Shown here: positions 2,608-60,836 of the stretch, piece after piece
Numbering within the stretch: position 1 is the first letter of the stretch
Layout of the letters: the number at the start of each line of letters is the position of its first letter
NCBI GenBank assembly: GCA_009780035.1
Contig: WRAU01000001.1
Coordinates: 186,001-250,000, forward strand
Direction: 5' to 3'
Origin: Alphaproteobacteria bacterium
GTDB taxonomy: Bacteria > Pseudomonadota > Alphaproteobacteria > WRAU01 > Hepatincolaceae
Length of the DNA: 64,000 bases
Notes under the pieces: model-generated
What the model was told of the DNA's origin: nothing
The model's database searches: none
Seen by the model: the letters and a program-made list of their open reading frames with translations, nothing else
Translations under genes and position numbers: made by a program

Positions 2608-3315
2608 TCAATTTTTTACAGCATAGCCAATGTAGTTAATATCAGGAATATTAGAAATTTTCCAGTCTCTGCTTAAAGGATGCAGTTTAATTCCCTTAAC
2701 ATCAGCAATTTTTACAGAATTTTTTACAAGCATATTATTAAGCTCTGCCGGCTTTAAAAACTTTGCATGATCGTGAGTTCCTTTAGGAACCCAATTTAAA
2801 ATATACTCTGCCGTCCATTTGGCTAAAATTAAGGATTTTAAGTTTCTATTGATGGTTGAAAAAAACAACAGTCCGCCTTCTTCTAAAAATTGCGATACGG
2901 TGTTAAGAAAGTCTATAGCGGAATTAACATGCTCGATAATCTCCATAACGAAAATAACTTTAAATTTTTTATGAGGGTTTTGCGCAAGGAAATCTTCCGG
3001 CAGAATATTAATATATTCTATATTTAAAGAATTCTCCTCAGCGTGCTTTTTAGCAGCCGCTATACTAGCACTAGAGGCATCAATTCCCGTAATTTTATAA
3101 CCTAGTTTTGCAAAACTTTCCGATAAAATTCCGCCGCCGCAGCCTACATCTAATATTTCAATGTTAGATAGATTATGCTGGTTTAAAATATCTGCAATAT
3201 AATCAACTCTAACTTTATTAAAGTTATGAAGGATTTTAAACTTTCCGCCATCCTTCCACCAATCCTCAGCGATACTTGAGAATCTTTCTATTTCAGAATC
3301 TATGCTAGATTTCAT
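2608..3315 (-). CDS. ubiG: Ubiquinone biosynthesis O-methyltransferase UbiG
   Basis: About 235 residues. The N-terminal FSSIAEDWWKDGGKFKILHNFNKVR-type segment is diagnostic of UbiG, followed by the SAM loop LDVGCGGGILSE near residue 55 and the late motif GTHDHAKFLKPAEL. UbiG does both O-methylations in ubiquinone synthesis at the inner membrane. I place the start at the ATG at 3315, because the GGTGG ribosome-binding site sits about nine bases before it but directly abuts the upstream in-frame ATG at 3324. Its presence implies a ubiquinone-based respiratory chain. Confidence 0.93.
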   Translation of the reverse strand: MKSSIDSEIERFSSIAEDWWKDGGKFKILHNFNKVRVDYIADILNQHNLSNIEILDVGCGGGILSESFAKLGYKITGIDASSASIAAAKKHAEENSLNIEYINILPEDFLAQNPHKKFKVIFVMEIIEHVNSAIDFLNTVSQFLEEGGLLFFSTINRNLKSLILAKWTAEYILNWVPKGTHDHAKFLKPAELNNMLVKNSVKIADVKGIKLHPLSRDWKISNIPDINYIGYAVKN

Positions 3316-3451
3316 TATTAACATCCACCCTAATTTTGTTAAAGAATAACATAATTTTTTTTAAAAAGTAATAAATTAATCTTGTATTTATTGATTATTG
3401 ATAATAATATATTAATTATATGATTACTATATATTTTTATGGAATAATTTT

Positions 3452-4456
3452 ATGAGCGCAAACAGCAAGTTAGAATCTTTATGGGAAGTAGGAAAGAAGT
3501 TTTTAGGGGTTGACTATCCAATTATGGGCGGGGCTATGTCGTGGATTTCGGAAAGCAATTTAGTAGCGGCAGTTTCAAATGCTGGAGCATTTGGTGTAAT
3601 TGCCAGTGGCTCTATGGATGCTCCTCTTTTAAAAGACATGATTATCAAAACTAAAGAAAAAACTAAAAAACCCTTTGGCGTTAATCTGATAGTTATGAAT
3701 CCTCATCTTGATTCTCTCATTGATGTTTGTATTGAACAACAATCAACGCATGTAATTTTTGCCGGCGGCTTTCCTAGTGTGGAAGTAATTACAAAATTAA
3801 AAGATAAAAATATCAAAACTTTAGGTTTTGCACCAAATTTATCATTAGGTAAAAGGCTTATTAAAAATGGTATAGACGCCTTAATTATTGAAGGATCTGA
3901 AGCTGGCGGGCATATTGGTCCGGTATCTACTTCCGTTTTAGTTCAGGAAATTCTGCCGAATATTAAAGAAGTTCCAGTTTTTGTAGCTGGCGGTATTGGC
4001 AGAGGCGAAGTTTTAGCCAACTATTTAGAACTGGGTGCCGCTGGAGTGCAAATCGGCACATCGTTAGTATGTGCTGCTGAATGTATCGCACACGATAATT
4101 TCAAGCAGTCGTTTATTAAAGCATCAGCAAGAGATGCACAGTCAACGCAGCAGGTTGACAACGATTTTACAGTAATTCCAGTGCGGGCAATTATTAATAA
4201 AGGTTCAAAAGATTTCTTAGATTTCCAGAAAGAAGTAATTGCCGATTATAAAGCAGGAAGTTTAACTAAATACGATGCGCAAATGAAAATAGAGCATTAT
4301 TGGGTTGGGGCTCTTAGACGCGCAGTAGTAGACGGCGATGTTGAAAATGGATCGCTTATGGCGGGGCAAAGTGTTGGTTTGGTAAATTCTATTCGTCCTA
4401 CGGCACAAATTATTGAAGAGCTAATTACTCAAGCAAAAGAATATTTAAATAAATAA
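3452..4456 (+). CDS. FabK-like enoyl-ACP reductase / nitronate monooxygenase family flavoprotein
   Basis: 334 residues, a TIM-barrel FMN enzyme. It opens with the PIMGGAMSWIS segment and has SNAGAFGVIASGS near residue 47, IEGSEAGGHIG near 147 with the conserved His, GGIGRGE near 180, and LGAAGVQIGT for phosphate binding. The C-terminal LMAGQSVGLVNSIRP is close to FabK-type enoyl-ACP reductases, which reduce the enoyl intermediate of fatty acid synthesis. Nitronate monooxygenase is the alternative. The sequence alone does not decide between these two well-known members of the superfamily. It lies 23 bases upstream of the rodZ-like gene, probably in one transcript. Confidence 0.78.
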   Translation: MSANSKLESLWEVGKKFLGVDYPIMGGAMSWISESNLVAAVSNAGAFGVIASGSMDAPLLKDMIIKTKEKTKKPFGVNLIVMNPHLDSLIDVCIEQQSTHVIFAGGFPSVEVITKLKDKNIKTLGFAPNLSLGKRLIKNGIDALIIEGSEAGGHIGPVSTSVLVQEILPNIKEVPVFVAGGIGRGEVLANYLELGAAGVQIGTSLVCAAECIAHDNFKQSFIKASARDAQSTQQVDNDFTVIPVRAIINKGSKDFLDFQKEVIADYKAGSLTKYDAQMKIEHYWVGALRRAVVDGDVENGSLMAGQSVGLVNSIRPTAQIIEELITQAKEYLNK

Positions 4457-54026: not shown

Positions 54027-54872
54027 TTATATTATTAAAATATCTAGATATTTAATTTCTATATCTTTACTAAATACTTTTACAGCTATAGAGTATGTGT
54101 GTTTTTTATATTTACTACCACCGATAACTTCTAGCAAGTTAATGCAATTATTATAAACATCAAAAAATTCATTTAAAGATTTTATTATATTCTCATGATG
54201 GCAGCATCTATTTCTTAGATTCTTAATACGAAAAAAATAACTAATCCAGTCTTTTTCATATTTATTTTTATTATTTTTATATAGATTTAATGATATTAGT
54301 AAGTCATCTTTTAAATGGCAATCTTTAACTATATTACACCATACTCCAAAACTTAAATCACTTACAAGTAAATGTCCAAGATTAGCTTTTTCTAAATTGC
54401 TTAACTTCTTCTTTTTTCTAGAGATTTTACGATTGATTTTTTCAATATTTTCAGTAGTAGCCTTACCTTTTTCTAATTTTAAAATTTCTTTATTTAAAGA
54501 TTTTTCTTTTTCTTTATATTCTTGCAGCTGCTCTTTAATAATCTTTTTAGTTTCGCTAGAATAACAAGATTTCTGCAATATTCCTTCATACCAAAAATGA
54601 GTAATTTGTTTATTGTTTCCTAAAAATTTCATAATTTTGTAAAACAATTTTCTTAAGCTAGAAGACTTAACTTGTTTAGTGCTTTCTAAAAACTGATAAA
54701 TCTTATTCCTAAAAAGTAATTCAAAATTACTTAATACAGGGAATATAAGATAAGTTAATTGCTGATTAAGTAAATATAAAGATTCTATTTGTGATTGATT
54801 GTTTTGATCTTTTACATAATCTCTGTAGCTATCTACTTTTCTACTAGAGTGCCAATCAGTTAAATTATTCAT
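54027..54872 (-). CDS. Abi-like protein with a HEPN motif (predicted abortive-infection RNase)
   Basis: 281 residues. It has the Abi_2 family layout: WHSSRKVDSYRDYV at the N-terminus, SLYLLNQQLTYLIFPVLSNFELLFRNKIYQFL, a coiled-coil insert at about 105-165, LVSDLSFGVWCNIV, and LRNRCCHHENI at 219-229. The R220-x4-H225 pattern is the HEPN signature of metal-independent RNases. Members give phage protection by stopping growth of infected cells. The sequence is richer in Lys/Asn than neighbours, typical of mobile defence genes. It stands alone; a GGAT-type signal precedes the ATG. Confidence 0.75.
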   Translation of the reverse strand: MNNLTDWHSSRKVDSYRDYVKDQNNQSQIESLYLLNQQLTYLIFPVLSNFELLFRNKIYQFLESTKQVKSSSLRKLFYKIMKFLGNNKQITHFWYEGILQKSCYSSETKKIIKEQLQEYKEKEKSLNKEILKLEKGKATTENIEKINRKISRKKKKLSNLEKANLGHLLVSDLSFGVWCNIVKDCHLKDDLLISLNLYKNNKNKYEKDWISYFFRIKNLRNRCCHHENIIKSLNEFFDVYNNCINLLEVIGGSKYKKHTYSIAVKVFSKDIEIKYLDILII

Positions 54873-55095: not shown

Positions 55096-55830
55096 CTATT
55101 TATACCAGCCATTTAAAAGGTGGGTCATATCTTCACCTACAGAAAATTCCACAGGCTCGGTGTTATGTTTAAAGATTTTTAACTTATGGTTATGGTAAGA
55201 ATCGTAGCTTAGTTTGCCGTTTCTTAATTTAAGCCAAGAGCCTTCTCTTAATCCCACAACAGTTTGATGTTGATTTTTAGCTAAAAACTCGGCAATTCTG
55301 TCGTCGCGGCTTTCACCCATATGTCCGTCAATAGTTTTATCTATATAATGCGGATTAATTTGGAAAGGCACAAAGTTAAGGCTAGTGGTAATAACTGCAT
55401 TTACGATAGGCATATCGTTAGTAGTTAGCATAGTTGGAGCAGCAATATTAGTGCCGGCACTCCAGCCTACGAATGGTTTATTTTTCAATAAAACTTCTTC
55501 ACGGATGGTATTAACTAAATTAAAATCATGCAAACATTTATTTAAATACCAAGTATTGCCGCCGCTTACCGCAATACCATCGCATTCTTTAATAGCTGCA
55601 ATTGGGTCTGCAAAGTCAGAAATAGAGCTTACTTTTACATTCATATGTTTTAGGGTTGTCATCATATCGTTAGCACGATTTTGGTAGGTGTCTCTAATTA
55701 CAGCATAAGGTAATAAAACATAATGTTTAATGTTGTTTTCTTCAACTTGTCTTTGTAGATCTTTTAAGCCGTATTCTAGCAAAGTTTGTTCTTTATTGGC
55801 TTTGCCGTTACTAAATAATAATATATCCAT
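55096..55830 (-). CDS. pepE: Dipeptidase E (S51 aspartyl dipeptidase)
   Basis: 244 residues. The Salmonella PepE triad is conserved with a constant offset: Ser124 in GWSAGTN, Asp139 in TTNDM, and His161 in NPHYID. GGNTWYLNKCL and the C-terminal GREG-like segment also match. PepE hydrolyses dipeptides with an N-terminal aspartate and feeds amino acid catabolism. It is a neighbour of the DcuC-type gene, which fits aspartate/C4-acid use. It lies next to the microcin-like cluster, where an amidase of this kind could in principle act on an aspartyl-type product. Start ATG follows GAGGAT. Confidence 0.92.
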   Translation of the reverse strand: MDILLFSNGKANKEQTLLEYGLKDLQRQVEENNIKHYVLLPYAVIRDTYQNRANDMMTTLKHMNVKVSSISDFADPIAAIKECDGIAVSGGNTWYLNKCLHDFNLVNTIREEVLLKNKPFVGWSAGTNIAAPTMLTTNDMPIVNAVITTSLNFVPFQINPHYIDKTIDGHMGESRDDRIAEFLAKNQHQTVVGLREGSWLKLRNGKLSYDSYHNHKLKIFKHNTEPVEFSVGEDMTHLLNGWYK

Positions 55831-57540: not shown

Positions 57541-57595
57541 TTAGAATTAATCTAATGTATTTAATTAATAAACAACAAATAAAGGAGTGATGGCT

Positions 57596-57649
57596 ATGAA
57601 TATTTTTTCATTTAAAGCTAGTTCTTCATCTCTTTCTGATGAAGGTTAG
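57596..57649 (+). CDS. 17-residue precursor peptide of a microcin C-like system
   Basis: MNIFSFKASSSSLSDEG. The ATG at 57596 is chosen since AAAGGAG at 57581-57587 lies eight bases upstream; an in-frame ATG at 57590 is only two bases from it. The product is Ser-rich with a basic Lys and an acidic end, and terminates in Gly, where MccA peptides end in Asn. A strong hairpin follows within nine bases, and an MccB-like gene starts 66 bases later. It is too short for gene finders. The evidence is context, ribosome-binding site and operon layout; expression is unproven. Confidence 0.7.
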   Translation: MNIFSFKASSSSLSDEG

Positions 57650-57657
57650 TTAAACAT

Positions 57658-57696
57658 TAGGAAGTAAATCGTTTATTAATGATTTACTTCCTTTTT
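57658..57696 (+). terminator. Attenuator-like terminator between peptide and adenylase genes
   Basis: GGAAGTAAATC (57660-57670) pairs exactly with GATTTACTTCC (57681-57691), followed by TTTTT. Its position, just after the short peptide frame and before mccB, matches the hairpin between mccA and mccB in E. coli that gives an excess of peptide mRNA. Partial read-through would be needed for the downstream genes. Confidence 0.85.
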
Positions 57697-57714
57697 ATAA
57701 AAAAGGCAAGGCAA

Positions 57715-58797
57715 ATGAAAATTAAACTAAAAGCCACTGTGCAAATGGTGGTTGATAAACAATATATTTATTTAAGAACTTCTTCATATATTCATAAAAT
57801 AGCTATTGATAATGACTATATATTAAAATTTTTTACGCTACTAAATGGAGAGTATACTGCAGAAGAAATTTACAATGCTTTAAAAAAAGAATATCAAGAT
57901 GTTGCAAAAGATAAAATTACAGAATATATCTCACAGTTAGATTCGCTATATTTACTAGAGTATGTAAAAGAAAATGATTTATTATCAGATTATGAAATTA
58001 ACAGATACCATAGGAATATAAATTTCTTTAATTCTTTTTTACATCTAAATGAAAATAAATACTTGATACAAAAAAAATTAAACGATGCTAGAGTTGTTTT
58101 ATTAGGGCTTGGAGGTTTAGGCTCTCATGTATTGTTTGATATGGCGGCAATGGGTATTCATCATATTAGAGCTGTTGAATTTGATAAAGTAGAAATATCT
58201 AACCTTAACAGGCAAATTCTATATAATGAAAGTAATATAGGTAGTTATAAAGCAGAGATAGCAGCAAAAAGAATCAAAGAATTTAATTCCAAACTTGATT
58301 TTGAGGTAATAAATACCAAAATTGAATCGCAACAGCAATTGCAAAATTTAATTAAAGGTTATGATGTTGTTGTATGCGTAGCCGATAGACCAAAAACACA
58401 AATAAGGTCGTGGTTGAATGAATCTTGTGTTAAAGAAGGTATTCCTTTTATAACAGGCGGGCTTGATACACAGGTAGCACGGTGGTATTCTTATATTCCT
58501 AAAATTTCTGGTTGCACGGAGTGTTGGCGAAAAACGATTGCTGAAAACGATAAGGAATCTGATTATATATTGAAAAAACATCAAGAAACTGAATTGAAGG
58601 GCGATAATGCAGCTTTTGTAGCGTTTGTATCGCTAATTGCAGGCTTCATAATTGCAGAATTAACTAAAATTATTACCAATATTGCCAAGCCTTTAGGAAT
58701 TAATAGGTGCATGGAAATTAATTTTAATAATATGGAAACATATATTGCAGAAACTTGGGGAAAAAGACCAAATTGCGATGTATGCGGTAATTCCTAA
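57715..58797 (+). CDS. mccB: MccB-like E1-type peptide adenylating enzyme
   Basis: 360 residues, close to E. coli MccB (350). An N-terminal RRE/peptide-clamp-type domain (about 1-85) precedes a ThiF/E1 domain: NRYHRNINFFNSF at 97-109 resembles NRYSRN of MccB, GLGGLG at 131-136 binds ATP, SNLNRQ at 162-167 and VADRP with D224 form the adenylation site, and zinc is held by C267/C270 and C354/C357 (CDVCGN). MccB, in E. coli, adenylates the Asn-ended heptapeptide to give a peptidyl-AMP phosphoramidate. ThiF/MoeB cofactor enzymes lack the N-terminal clamp. The start at ATG 57715 is backed by AAGG motifs. Confidence 0.88.
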   Translation: MKIKLKATVQMVVDKQYIYLRTSSYIHKIAIDNDYILKFFTLLNGEYTAEEIYNALKKEYQDVAKDKITEYISQLDSLYLLEYVKENDLLSDYEINRYHRNINFFNSFLHLNENKYLIQKKLNDARVVLLGLGGLGSHVLFDMAAMGIHHIRAVEFDKVEISNLNRQILYNESNIGSYKAEIAAKRIKEFNSKLDFEVINTKIESQQQLQNLIKGYDVVVCVADRPKTQIRSWLNESCVKEGIPFITGGLDTQVARWYSYIPKISGCTECWRKTIAENDKESDYILKKHQETELKGDNAAFVAFVSLIAGFIIAELTKIITNIAKPLGINRCMEINFNNMETYIAETWGKRPNCDVCGNS

Positions 58798-58837
58798 ATT
58801 TTAATAAATCATAATTTTATAAAATAAAGACACAAAA

Positions 58838-60034
58838 ATGGAAAAAAACTACAAATTATTTTTTATAGCATATGTGATTGCGAATGTTGGCGATTGGTTT
58901 TTTAAGCTAGCCATGCCGATTTATTTATTTGAAAAAACTGGTTCAGCATTATATATGGCGGTGGGTTATGCTCTATCGTTTTTACCATTTTTGCTGTTTA
59001 CTTTAGTGGGCGGAGTTTTAGCCGATATTTATGCTAGAAAGTATTTAATAGTGCTTGTAATGTTTTTAAGCTCAGCGATGGTTGTGTTAATATCTTATAT
59101 AATTCATATTGATGGCGGATTGATATTTATCTACATTTTCAGCTTTGTACTATCTTCGCTCACAACCGTAGGGCACCCAATTTTACAAAGCTATATTGTA
59201 GATATTGTGCCAGATAAAGCCAAACTTGCCAGCCGAAATAGTTTTTTATTAAGTGTTGATAATACTTTAGTGTTGGTTGCTCCCATCTTAAGCGGAGTTT
59301 TAATTTCTGTGCTAGGAACTAAACTATCTTTTATAATTAATGCGGGGGCATTGTTAGCTGCCACGGTTTTTATAATGTTAATAGATGTTAAGGGAGTTCG
59401 GGTTAATGTTTCTAAAAATGTAAAATCCATTGTTAATATGCTAAAAGAAGGCTTTTTAACTATTAAAGCCCAGCCTTTTTTACTGTATGGCTCGCTTTTA
59501 TTTTTCGGCACAAATTTTTCTACGAACTTTTTTAATGTGAATTTTGTATTTATTTTAAAAGAATATTTGCTGGCTAATTCAACACAAGTGGGAATATGTT
59601 TTGCGATTACTGGGATTGGGGCATTAGCGGGGTCTTTTGCGGGTCCATTCTTTTTAAAACGCATGCAAGAGGGCAGATTAATCGTAATAATGACAGTTTT
59701 TGCTGGAATATTTATGTTTGCTTTAATGCTTGCTAATAACTATATTCTATTAGGCTTAATTTGGGGATTAGTGAGCTTTTTTGGGTCTGTTAATGTGGTA
59801 GCATTTTTTACCTTACGGCAAAAAGTAGTGCCAAGTGAAATTTTAGGTCGCAGTGTGGCAATTACTAGAATGATTTCATACGCCAGTATTCCCCTAGCAG
59901 CTATTTTGGGAGGAATGACTTTGAATGCTACTAATAATGTTGTTTTAATTATATTAATTGCTGCAGTTATTAGAATTTTAATGGGGATTATGGCAATTTT
60001 TACACCGCTATTTAAAACCCATGCAAAAATTTAA
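58838..60034 (+). CDS. MFS exporter, MccC-like
   Basis: 398 residues with about twelve membrane helices and an MFS loop GVLADIYARKYL after helix 2. The pattern matches the MFS_3 (EntS/macrolide efflux) group, to which MccC (about 404 residues) belongs. It would export the modified peptide and confer self-protection. It starts 41 bases after mccB and its last 14 bases overlap the AlkA-type gene, so all are likely one transcript. The substrate is inferred from context only. Confidence 0.78.
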   Translation: MEKNYKLFFIAYVIANVGDWFFKLAMPIYLFEKTGSALYMAVGYALSFLPFLLFTLVGGVLADIYARKYLIVLVMFLSSAMVVLISYIIHIDGGLIFIYIFSFVLSSLTTVGHPILQSYIVDIVPDKAKLASRNSFLLSVDNTLVLVAPILSGVLISVLGTKLSFIINAGALLAATVFIMLIDVKGVRVNVSKNVKSIVNMLKEGFLTIKAQPFLLYGSLLFFGTNFSTNFFNVNFVFILKEYLLANSTQVGICFAITGIGALAGSFAGPFFLKRMQEGRLIVIMTVFAGIFMFALMLANNYILLGLIWGLVSFFGSVNVVAFFTLRQKVVPSEILGRSVAITRMISYASIPLAAILGGMTLNATNNVVLIILIAAVIRILMGIMAIFTPLFKTHAKI

Positions 60035-60836
60035 TTTATATTTCCATTTGCCTGCCATAAAAACAAACCTTAAAACCATTAATAGGGGTGCGGTTGATTG
60101 CCTTAATTATGCAGATAACCAGCAGTGGCAAAGAGTTTTAGAGAGCAGCAATATTTTAAGTTTAAATTTAAATAGCGGCGAATTGCAGGCTAGCCAAGAT
60201 ATTAGCTTATATAAAATTTATTCGCTTTTAGGACTGCAAGATAAACAATATATTTTTGAAGAATATAAATCGCACTTTAGTGATAATCAGTATCAAGCCT
60301 TGCGGAAATTTCAGCATATGTCTGTGCCGCAATATGATACGCCATTTGAGGGATTAACTCAAATTATTTTCGGTCAGCAAGTTGCTGTAGCCGTTGCTAA
60401 TAAACAGCGAATGAGTTTTGTGCAAGCAATGGGGATAAAATATAATGATAATTTATATCAATATCCGCAGCTCCAAAATATCCAAGAAGAGCAGGTTAAT
60501 GCTATGGCAATTAGCGGCAATAAAAAGAAATCGCTTTTGGCAATCACAGAATATTTTTTAAATAATAAGACAGAAAGTTTAGATATAAAACAATTGCAAG
60601 AACAGCTTATTGCTTTATTCGGCATTGGGCAGTGGAGCGTTGATTGGTTTTTGCTGCGGTGTGCTAGTCAAATACATATTATTCCCTCTGGAGATTTACA
60701 GATAAGAAAAGTGTTTGCCAAGTTTTTTAATAACCCAGACTTCATGGATTCTAAAAAATTAAAAGAGTTAGAAAAAACTTTTTATCCCATCGGCGGATTG
60801 TTAGCTCATTGTTTGCTATTAAATAATAATTGTTGA
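60021..60836 (+). CDS. AlkA-type DNA-3-methyladenine glycosylase (HhH-GPD)
   Basis: 271 residues. The FEGLTQIIFGQQVAVAVANKQ segment is typical of the family core, the helix-hairpin-helix is at ALFGIGQWSVDWF (198-210), and the catalytic aspartate is D225 in PSGDLQIRK. It excises alkylated bases in DNA repair. An N-terminal AlkA-like region is present. It overlaps the exporter by 14 bases and the convergent RpiR gene by 31, so it is probably transcribed with the microcin-like genes. A second role in self-protection is conceivable but unsupported. Confidence 0.82.
   Translation: MQKFNLYFHLPAIKTNLKTINRGAVDCLNYADNQQWQRVLESSNILSLNLNSGELQASQDISLYKIYSLLGLQDKQYIFEEYKSHFSDNQYQALRKFQHMSVPQYDTPFEGLTQIIFGQQVAVAVANKQRMSFVQAMGIKYNDNLYQYPQLQNIQEEQVNAMAISGNKKKSLLAITEYFLNNKTESLDIKQLQEQLIALFGIGQWSVDWFLLRCASQIHIIPSGDLQIRKVFAKFFNNPDFMDSKKLKELEKTFYPIGGLLAHCLLLNNNC

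Follow-up and report, generated by a model that had tools for sequence, protein, structure and literature searches.

In a 64,000-nucleotide stretch of alphaproteobacterial DNA (the window), four genes on the same strand, spanning positions 57596 to 60836, encode a precursor peptide, an RRE-ThiF enzyme, an MFS protein and an AlkA-like protein (Table 1). We believe this four-gene unit to be a RiPP operon of a cross-phylum, MccB-like clade that is apparently undescribed and that is related to, yet distinct from, microcin C. The variant of MccB-like RiPPs that it represents is, in our view, real and apparently new to the literature, and the mechanism proposed below is plausible. A preliminary description of this DNA had recognised a gene of 17 codons preceded by a good ribosome-binding site, a hairpin with a T run, an MccB-like gene and an MFS gene, all in one direction and in the order of the E. 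coli mcc operon (short peptide, hairpin, RRE-ThiF, MFS), and all of these features were confirmed. However, the operon extends past 60034 into the AlkA-like gene, which that description lacked, and it had also missed that the precursor ends in Gly and not Asn.

Table 1. Features of the operon and its flanks, in window coordinates.
Feature	Position	Strand	Details
DcuC gene and PepE gene	PepE 55096-55830	opposite to operon	upstream of operon
Shine-Dalgarno AGGAG	57583-57587	+	8 nt ahead of precursor ATG
Precursor gene	57596-57649	+	17 aa, MNIFSFKASSSSLSDEG; ATG at 57596, TAG ends 57649; from sequence, with position and shape homologous in relatives
Predicted core S9-G17	57620-57646	+	Ser at -8 and C-terminal Gly, predicted ring-closing residues; invariant S/T(-8), putative bond
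Intrinsic-terminator-like hairpin between precursor and enzyme genes	57659-57692	+	15-pair stem, 4-nt loop, then T-rich tail
RRE-ThiF adenylating enzyme (predicted), MccB architecture	57715-58797	+	360 aa; ThiF profile 1.9e-48
MFS exporter (predicted)	58838-60034	+	398 aa; MFS profile 2.4e-32
AlkA-like HhH-GPD DNA glycosylase (alkyl-purine), proposed self-immunity gene	60021-60836	+	14-nt overlap with MFS stop
RpiR-type regulator gene			downstream of operon

The enzyme carries the motifs GLGGLG (residues 131-136) and SNLNRQ (162-167) and two zinc CxxC pairs (267/270 and 354/357), all invariant or nearly so among its relatives, in which the ATP-site residues R166, Q167, K179 and D224 and the four zinc cysteines are conserved. 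Its best sequence match in the PDB is E. coli MccB (7e-36), with PaaA second and MoeB and ThiF behind. The AlphaFold model (pLDDT 92.8) gives the same order, since its top fold match is full-length MccB, including the peptide-clamp/RRE domain (TM 0.81), and PaaA is next. Given the MccB fold, the conserved ATP-site residues and the zinc cysteines, adenylation of a peptide carboxylate is the reaction expected from homology, and the enzyme probably activates the C-terminus of the peptide.

For the precursor, the 17-codon start is preferred because a second in-frame ATG, at 57590, lies too close to the Shine-Dalgarno sequence (2 nt). In the related loci, precursors were chosen by a fixed, objective rule (start codon, Shine-Dalgarno, distance), which reproduces the S/T(-8) list throughout the clade; six clade loci were found later through the enzyme profile alone. 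All 17 distinct clade precursors have Ser (16) or Thr (1) at exactly -8 from the C-terminus. Position -6 is invariably A/S, Gly occupies -5 in 13 of the 17, and the last residue is Gly in 14 and Ala, Tyr or Ser in one each. With one representative per divergent lineage the S/T(-8) column holds in 12 of 12, and no such column appeared in 200,000 shuffles made within the peptides of these lineages. One hairpin follows the gene, against 0.0 +/- 0.1 in shuffled sequence; hairpins occur at the equivalent spot in most relatives and also between mccA and mccB of E. coli.

Relatives were gathered by tblastn in plasmids and by scanning 84,980 species genomes with a profile as guide. Scans of viral and genome contigs that started from a single protein returned zero relatives; the second genome scan, which succeeded, used a five-member alignment. 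The order peptide, hairpin, enzyme, MFS recurs in Pantoea, Salmonella, Pseudomonas and other gammaproteobacteria, Nostoc, Streptomyces, Nonomuraea and Pseudonocardiales; two gammaproteobacterial members (L027 and L117) have no adjacent MFS gene. This shared order in several phyla, together with a peptide gene in which, among Streptomyces paralogues, nonsynonymous differences per site are fewer than synonymous ones, argues that the association is more than chance. Members are sparse and turn up here and there in distant taxa and on plasmids, a pattern that a mobile weapon would be expected to show. When sampled genomes were searched with profiles, 394 Streptomyces genomes yielded five S8-type loci and 369 gammaproteobacteria three matches, the seed being counted each time, and the operon was seen in one of the four sampled genomes of its own family, that of the window. 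The enzyme was missing from 384 further genomes sampled in its class, the phages searched gave MoeB/ThiF-like matches only, and the E. coli genomes searched at the DNA level held no relative of the Salmonella operon.

In the enzyme tree, the window enzyme and those of its relatives form one clade (support 100/99, or 96/98 after addition of a second McC-type sequence), and it is exactly the S/T(-8) loci that share it. The nearest relative is G1082, for the enzyme by tree path and for the MFS protein by identity (40%; G1082/L118). A Firmicutes sister group (L004, L026 and L028) has precursors with a C-terminal Gly and no S/T at -8, and was left outside the clade.

Placement of the enzyme among MoeB and ThiF proteins, which the preliminary description had named among the outcomes that would refute its view, is not what we found. 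A housekeeping enzyme of MoeB/ThiF type with an unrelated MFS gene and a spurious short reading frame next to it would fit with the generic nature of the ThiF profile matches, but the protein scores far under the equivalog cut-offs (124 bits against 275 for ThiF and 113 against 266 for MoeB), it has the RRE/peptide-clamp architecture of MccB, the same genome encodes a separate MoeB/ThiF-type protein elsewhere, and the short reading frame recurs across phyla with invariant residues. Precursor conservation and the fold match leave this reading strongly disfavoured, and we give it almost no weight. We also think it improbable, though to a lesser degree, that the operon is of true microcin C type, its enzyme adding a nucleotide to yield a Trojan-horse inhibitor of an aminoacyl-tRNA synthetase. 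The gene order, the intergenic hairpin and the ATP-site residues are as in mcc, MccB is the best match by both sequence and fold, and, although the tree sets the window enzyme in the Ser(-8)/C-terminal-Gly clade apart from the very long MccB/McC branch, AU tests did not reject joining the two (p 0.22, 0.38). However, mcc precursors end in Asn and are usually 7 aa long, as at both mcc loci read for comparison (E. coli MRTGNAN and Borreliella MLGKNFN), whereas the window peptide is a 17-mer with Ser at -8 and a C-terminal Gly, and no clade precursor ends in Asn. MccB rearranges the C-terminal Asn of its peptide via a succinimide (PMC12250964); as Gly has no side-chain amide for this step, microcin C chemistry is not supported, and for that reason a stable product of +329 Da (AMP) is not expected, whereas one of -18 Da (ring closure) is. 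The window MFS protein has no significant similarity to MccC by BLAST (best E 2.8), the operon adds the AlkA-like gene, and there are no MccD, MccE or MccF genes among the operon neighbours, although the last point is weak evidence since a minimal three-gene mcc also does without them (PMC12250964). We asked whether the S51 peptidase gene next to the DcuC transporter gene could provide immunity in the manner of MccG and decided against this, because the protein passes the equivalog cut-off for PepE and E. coli PepE does not confer McC resistance or immunity (PMC9239234). What stands of the term "microcin C-like" is thus a modified-peptide operon with an exporter, an enzyme of MccB fold and the mcc gene order, while the chemistry that the term implies does not. 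Our distinction from microcin C rests on precursor chemistry and neighbouring genes, not on the tree alone.

Based on these observations, we propose a model for the pathway. The N-terminal RRE would hold residues 1 to ~8 of the 17-mer while its C-terminal Gly enters the ThiF-type active site, where, by homology, ATP/Mg would adenylate the C-terminal carboxylate. A C-terminal Gly is a good acyl donor for cyclisation. The hydroxyl of Ser9 would then attack the acyl-adenylate, AMP would leave and a nine-residue macrolactone would close with loss of 18 Da. We propose Ser9 as the nucleophile because, of the nucleophilic side chains, S/T(-8) alone is invariant at a set distance from the C-terminus; Lys(-10) was considered for the same role and rejected, as it is not conserved. 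A peptidase would next cut off the leader and the MFS protein would export the product, which, itself or in its intracellular form, would damage DNA bases, the AlkA-like glycosylase (and, in relatives, also Ada/Ogt-like proteins) shielding the producer. Taken as a whole, from adenylation and the Ser9 lactone through export to DNA damage and AlkA-like self-protection, the scheme is tentative, and we hold it slightly more apt to fail in some part than to be right in all. Peptidases of the M3 or S9 type lie beside several relatives: M3 peptidase genes adjoin several Streptomyces loci and the gammaproteobacterial OFTM154, and a prolyl oligopeptidase gene adjoins that of Nonomuraea. Haem-oxygenase-like (diiron-type) genes adjoin the Pseudomonas and Nostoc loci, and in two clade loci such a gene comes immediately after the MFS gene (L021, 6978-7715; L023, 7219-8097). 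These enzymes are candidates to remove the leader and tailor the peptide; the window operon has neither type of gene adjacent to it.

There are precedents for the first half of this model. ThiF-like RiPP enzymes adenylate a carboxylate and draw the attacking partner from the same peptide, namely Cys in GrcB, a backbone N in EnfB and the Trp indole in IndF, where the partner Trp is essential (PMC12250964, PMC12150305). IndF, which makes an indolylamide macrocycle in Streptococcus pneumoniae, is likewise a stand-alone RRE-ThiF enzyme that acts at the peptide C-terminus with a partner at fixed distance (Trp-x-x-Ile). In contrast, the window locus has Ser/Thr(-8) before a C-terminal Gly and MFS export, with neither a Trp three residues ahead of the C-terminus nor an M16 peptidase. 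GrcB also adenylates and then forms a (thio)ester macrocycle (a Glu-Cys thiolactone), but there is no Cys in the window precursor and no radical SAM gene beside it, and the predicted site of activation is the C-terminal carboxylate, not a Glu side chain. EnfB is an RRE-ThiF enzyme that activates the C-terminal carboxylate of the enterofaecin precursor (WWIVI); the window precursor lacks a C-terminal motif of this type, and loci with WWIII or WIIF peptides (L014 and L029) form a separate branch of the enzyme tree. As for PaaA of pantocin A, the second-best fold match, the window locus has no Glu-Glu-Asn core and no PaaB oxygenase.

The second half of the model derives from the AlkA-like gene and its counterparts. 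The window protein matches 3-methyladenine glycosylases in the PDB at 1.5e-8 and the catalytic Asp of the HhH-GPD fold occupies an invariant position in a four-protein alignment; it is a predicted AlkA-type member of the HhH-GPD fold family that scores below the curated AlkA cut-off. An AlkA-like gene directly follows the MFS gene at three loci, those of the window, G1082 and a Salmonella plasmid. At G1082 the gap is 2 nt and an Ogt/ATL-like gene comes next. At the Nostoc locus, Ada-like and AlkA genes lie downstream, also on the same strand, and in Streptomyces A0958 genes for AlkB and Tag lie ~1.7 kb upstream, where membership of the operon is not clear. In HMM searches, DNA-alkylation-repair genes were found at 5 of 19 clade loci and at 0 of 86 other ThiF-type loci (810 kb), a difference with a Fisher p of 1.2e-4 in a test that takes related loci as independent. 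Since the repair genes are confined in this comparison to the clade, the linkage suggests self-immunity by repair against a base-damaging product. Neither the AlkA nor the enzyme of the window had a match in three other genomes of the family. Self-resistance by DNA glycosylases, of the AlkZ/HTH_42 and AlkD types, is known from genotoxin clusters (PMC9040887, PMC8934636, PMC8626424), in which a glycosylase is likewise encoded beside the toxin biosynthesis genes (AlkZ, YtkR2, HedH4, TxnU2/4 and LldU1/5; PMC9040887, PMC8934636). Whereas those clusters use HTH_42 or AlkD types, here the proteins are of AlkA/Tag/Ogt type, the operon is a RiPP operon and the genotoxicity is putative. The weakest part of our proposal is the base damage ascribed to the product or to a derivative of it; the product may be a DNA-damaging peptide, but a lactone offers no obvious DNA-alkylating group, and the two halves of the model are not yet joined chemically.

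Each half has a competitor. The adenylated C-terminus of the same RiPP operon could react otherwise, by an EnfB-like attack of a backbone amide, by forming an amide with a small amine or as a lactam, with Ser/Thr(-8) serving as a recognition or spacing residue. EnfB turns its acyl-adenylate into a macrocyclic imide or amide (PMC12250964), the invariant A/S(-6) and the common Gly(-5) could be parts of a recognition motif, and the Firmicutes sister group is Gly-terminal without S/T(-8). Within the clade, however, no nucleophilic side chain other than S/T(-8) invariably keeps its position relative to the C-terminus, and we consider such other reactions unlikely, if well within reason. We lean only a little against a non-genotoxic product, a signalling peptide or other bacteriocin whose operon carries along an ordinary repair gene. 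In the sister locus on a Macrococcus bovicus plasmid (L004, 4961-5782), a regulator of the RNPP family, of peptide pheromone type, lies just upstream of the Gly-terminal ThiF/MFS operon, which suggests peptide-responsive control, and 14 of the 19 clade loci, Pantoea included, lack a repair gene in the sequence read around them. On the other hand, AlkA is the next same-strand gene at three loci although the three AlkA proteins are only 23-35% identical to one another, none of the 86 control loci has a repair gene, and the MFS and AlkA-like genes of the window overlap translationally. The Ser9 lactone with repair-based protection remains our preferred model. The broadest version, an undescribed RiPP class in at least three phyla in which a single RRE-ThiF enzyme forms a lactone between Ser/Thr and the C-terminus of very short peptides, yielding a weapon that alkylates DNA or damages its bases in another way, with operon-encoded alkyl-DNA repair as protection, we regard as rather doubtful.

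ThiF-like enzymes acting on peptides make phosphoramidates, thiolactones, imides and indolylamides. If our model is true, the serine-lactone clade would add a reaction type to this list, and the repair-gene linkage would be a rare hint at the target of a RiPP from its immunity gene. A search of open full-text literature, with most subscription journals and supplements outside its scope, found no paper on a ThiF-type RiPP with such lactones or with alkyl-DNA repair; RefSeq-wide RRE-ThiF similarity networks exist and may contain the clade unnamed (PMC12150305).

The flanking DcuC, PepE and RpiR-type genes look unrelated to the operon. The assembly from which the window comes contains no 16S rRNA. 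A promoter scan gave sites no commoner than expected by chance, and PADLOC anti-phage matches were discarded as generic E1 only. An Abi_2-like abortive-infection gene lies in a very AT-rich stretch (22% G+C) at 54027-54872 on the minus strand. Among the other loci read, plasmid p_lp25 of Borreliella garinii (L119, 3028-5369) carries the mcc-type locus for MLGKNFN, with a strong ribosome-binding site and an MFS gene; its MccB-like gene reads as two ORFs (3150-3473 and 3483-4184) and is possibly broken. Enterofaecin-like C-termini occur outside lactic acid bacteria, in Niallia (L014, 3655-3720, WWIII) and in the actinomycete Nonomuraea cypriaca (L029, 4342-4407, SWIIF). Tandem duplicated precursor genes precede a ThiF-like enzyme in L113/L125 and in L026, and a ThiF-associated precursor of Bacillus sp. 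SA1-12 (L031, 4410-4490) has a poly-Cys tail, MKIKAKKVEKIKPTVAAGCCCCCGCC.
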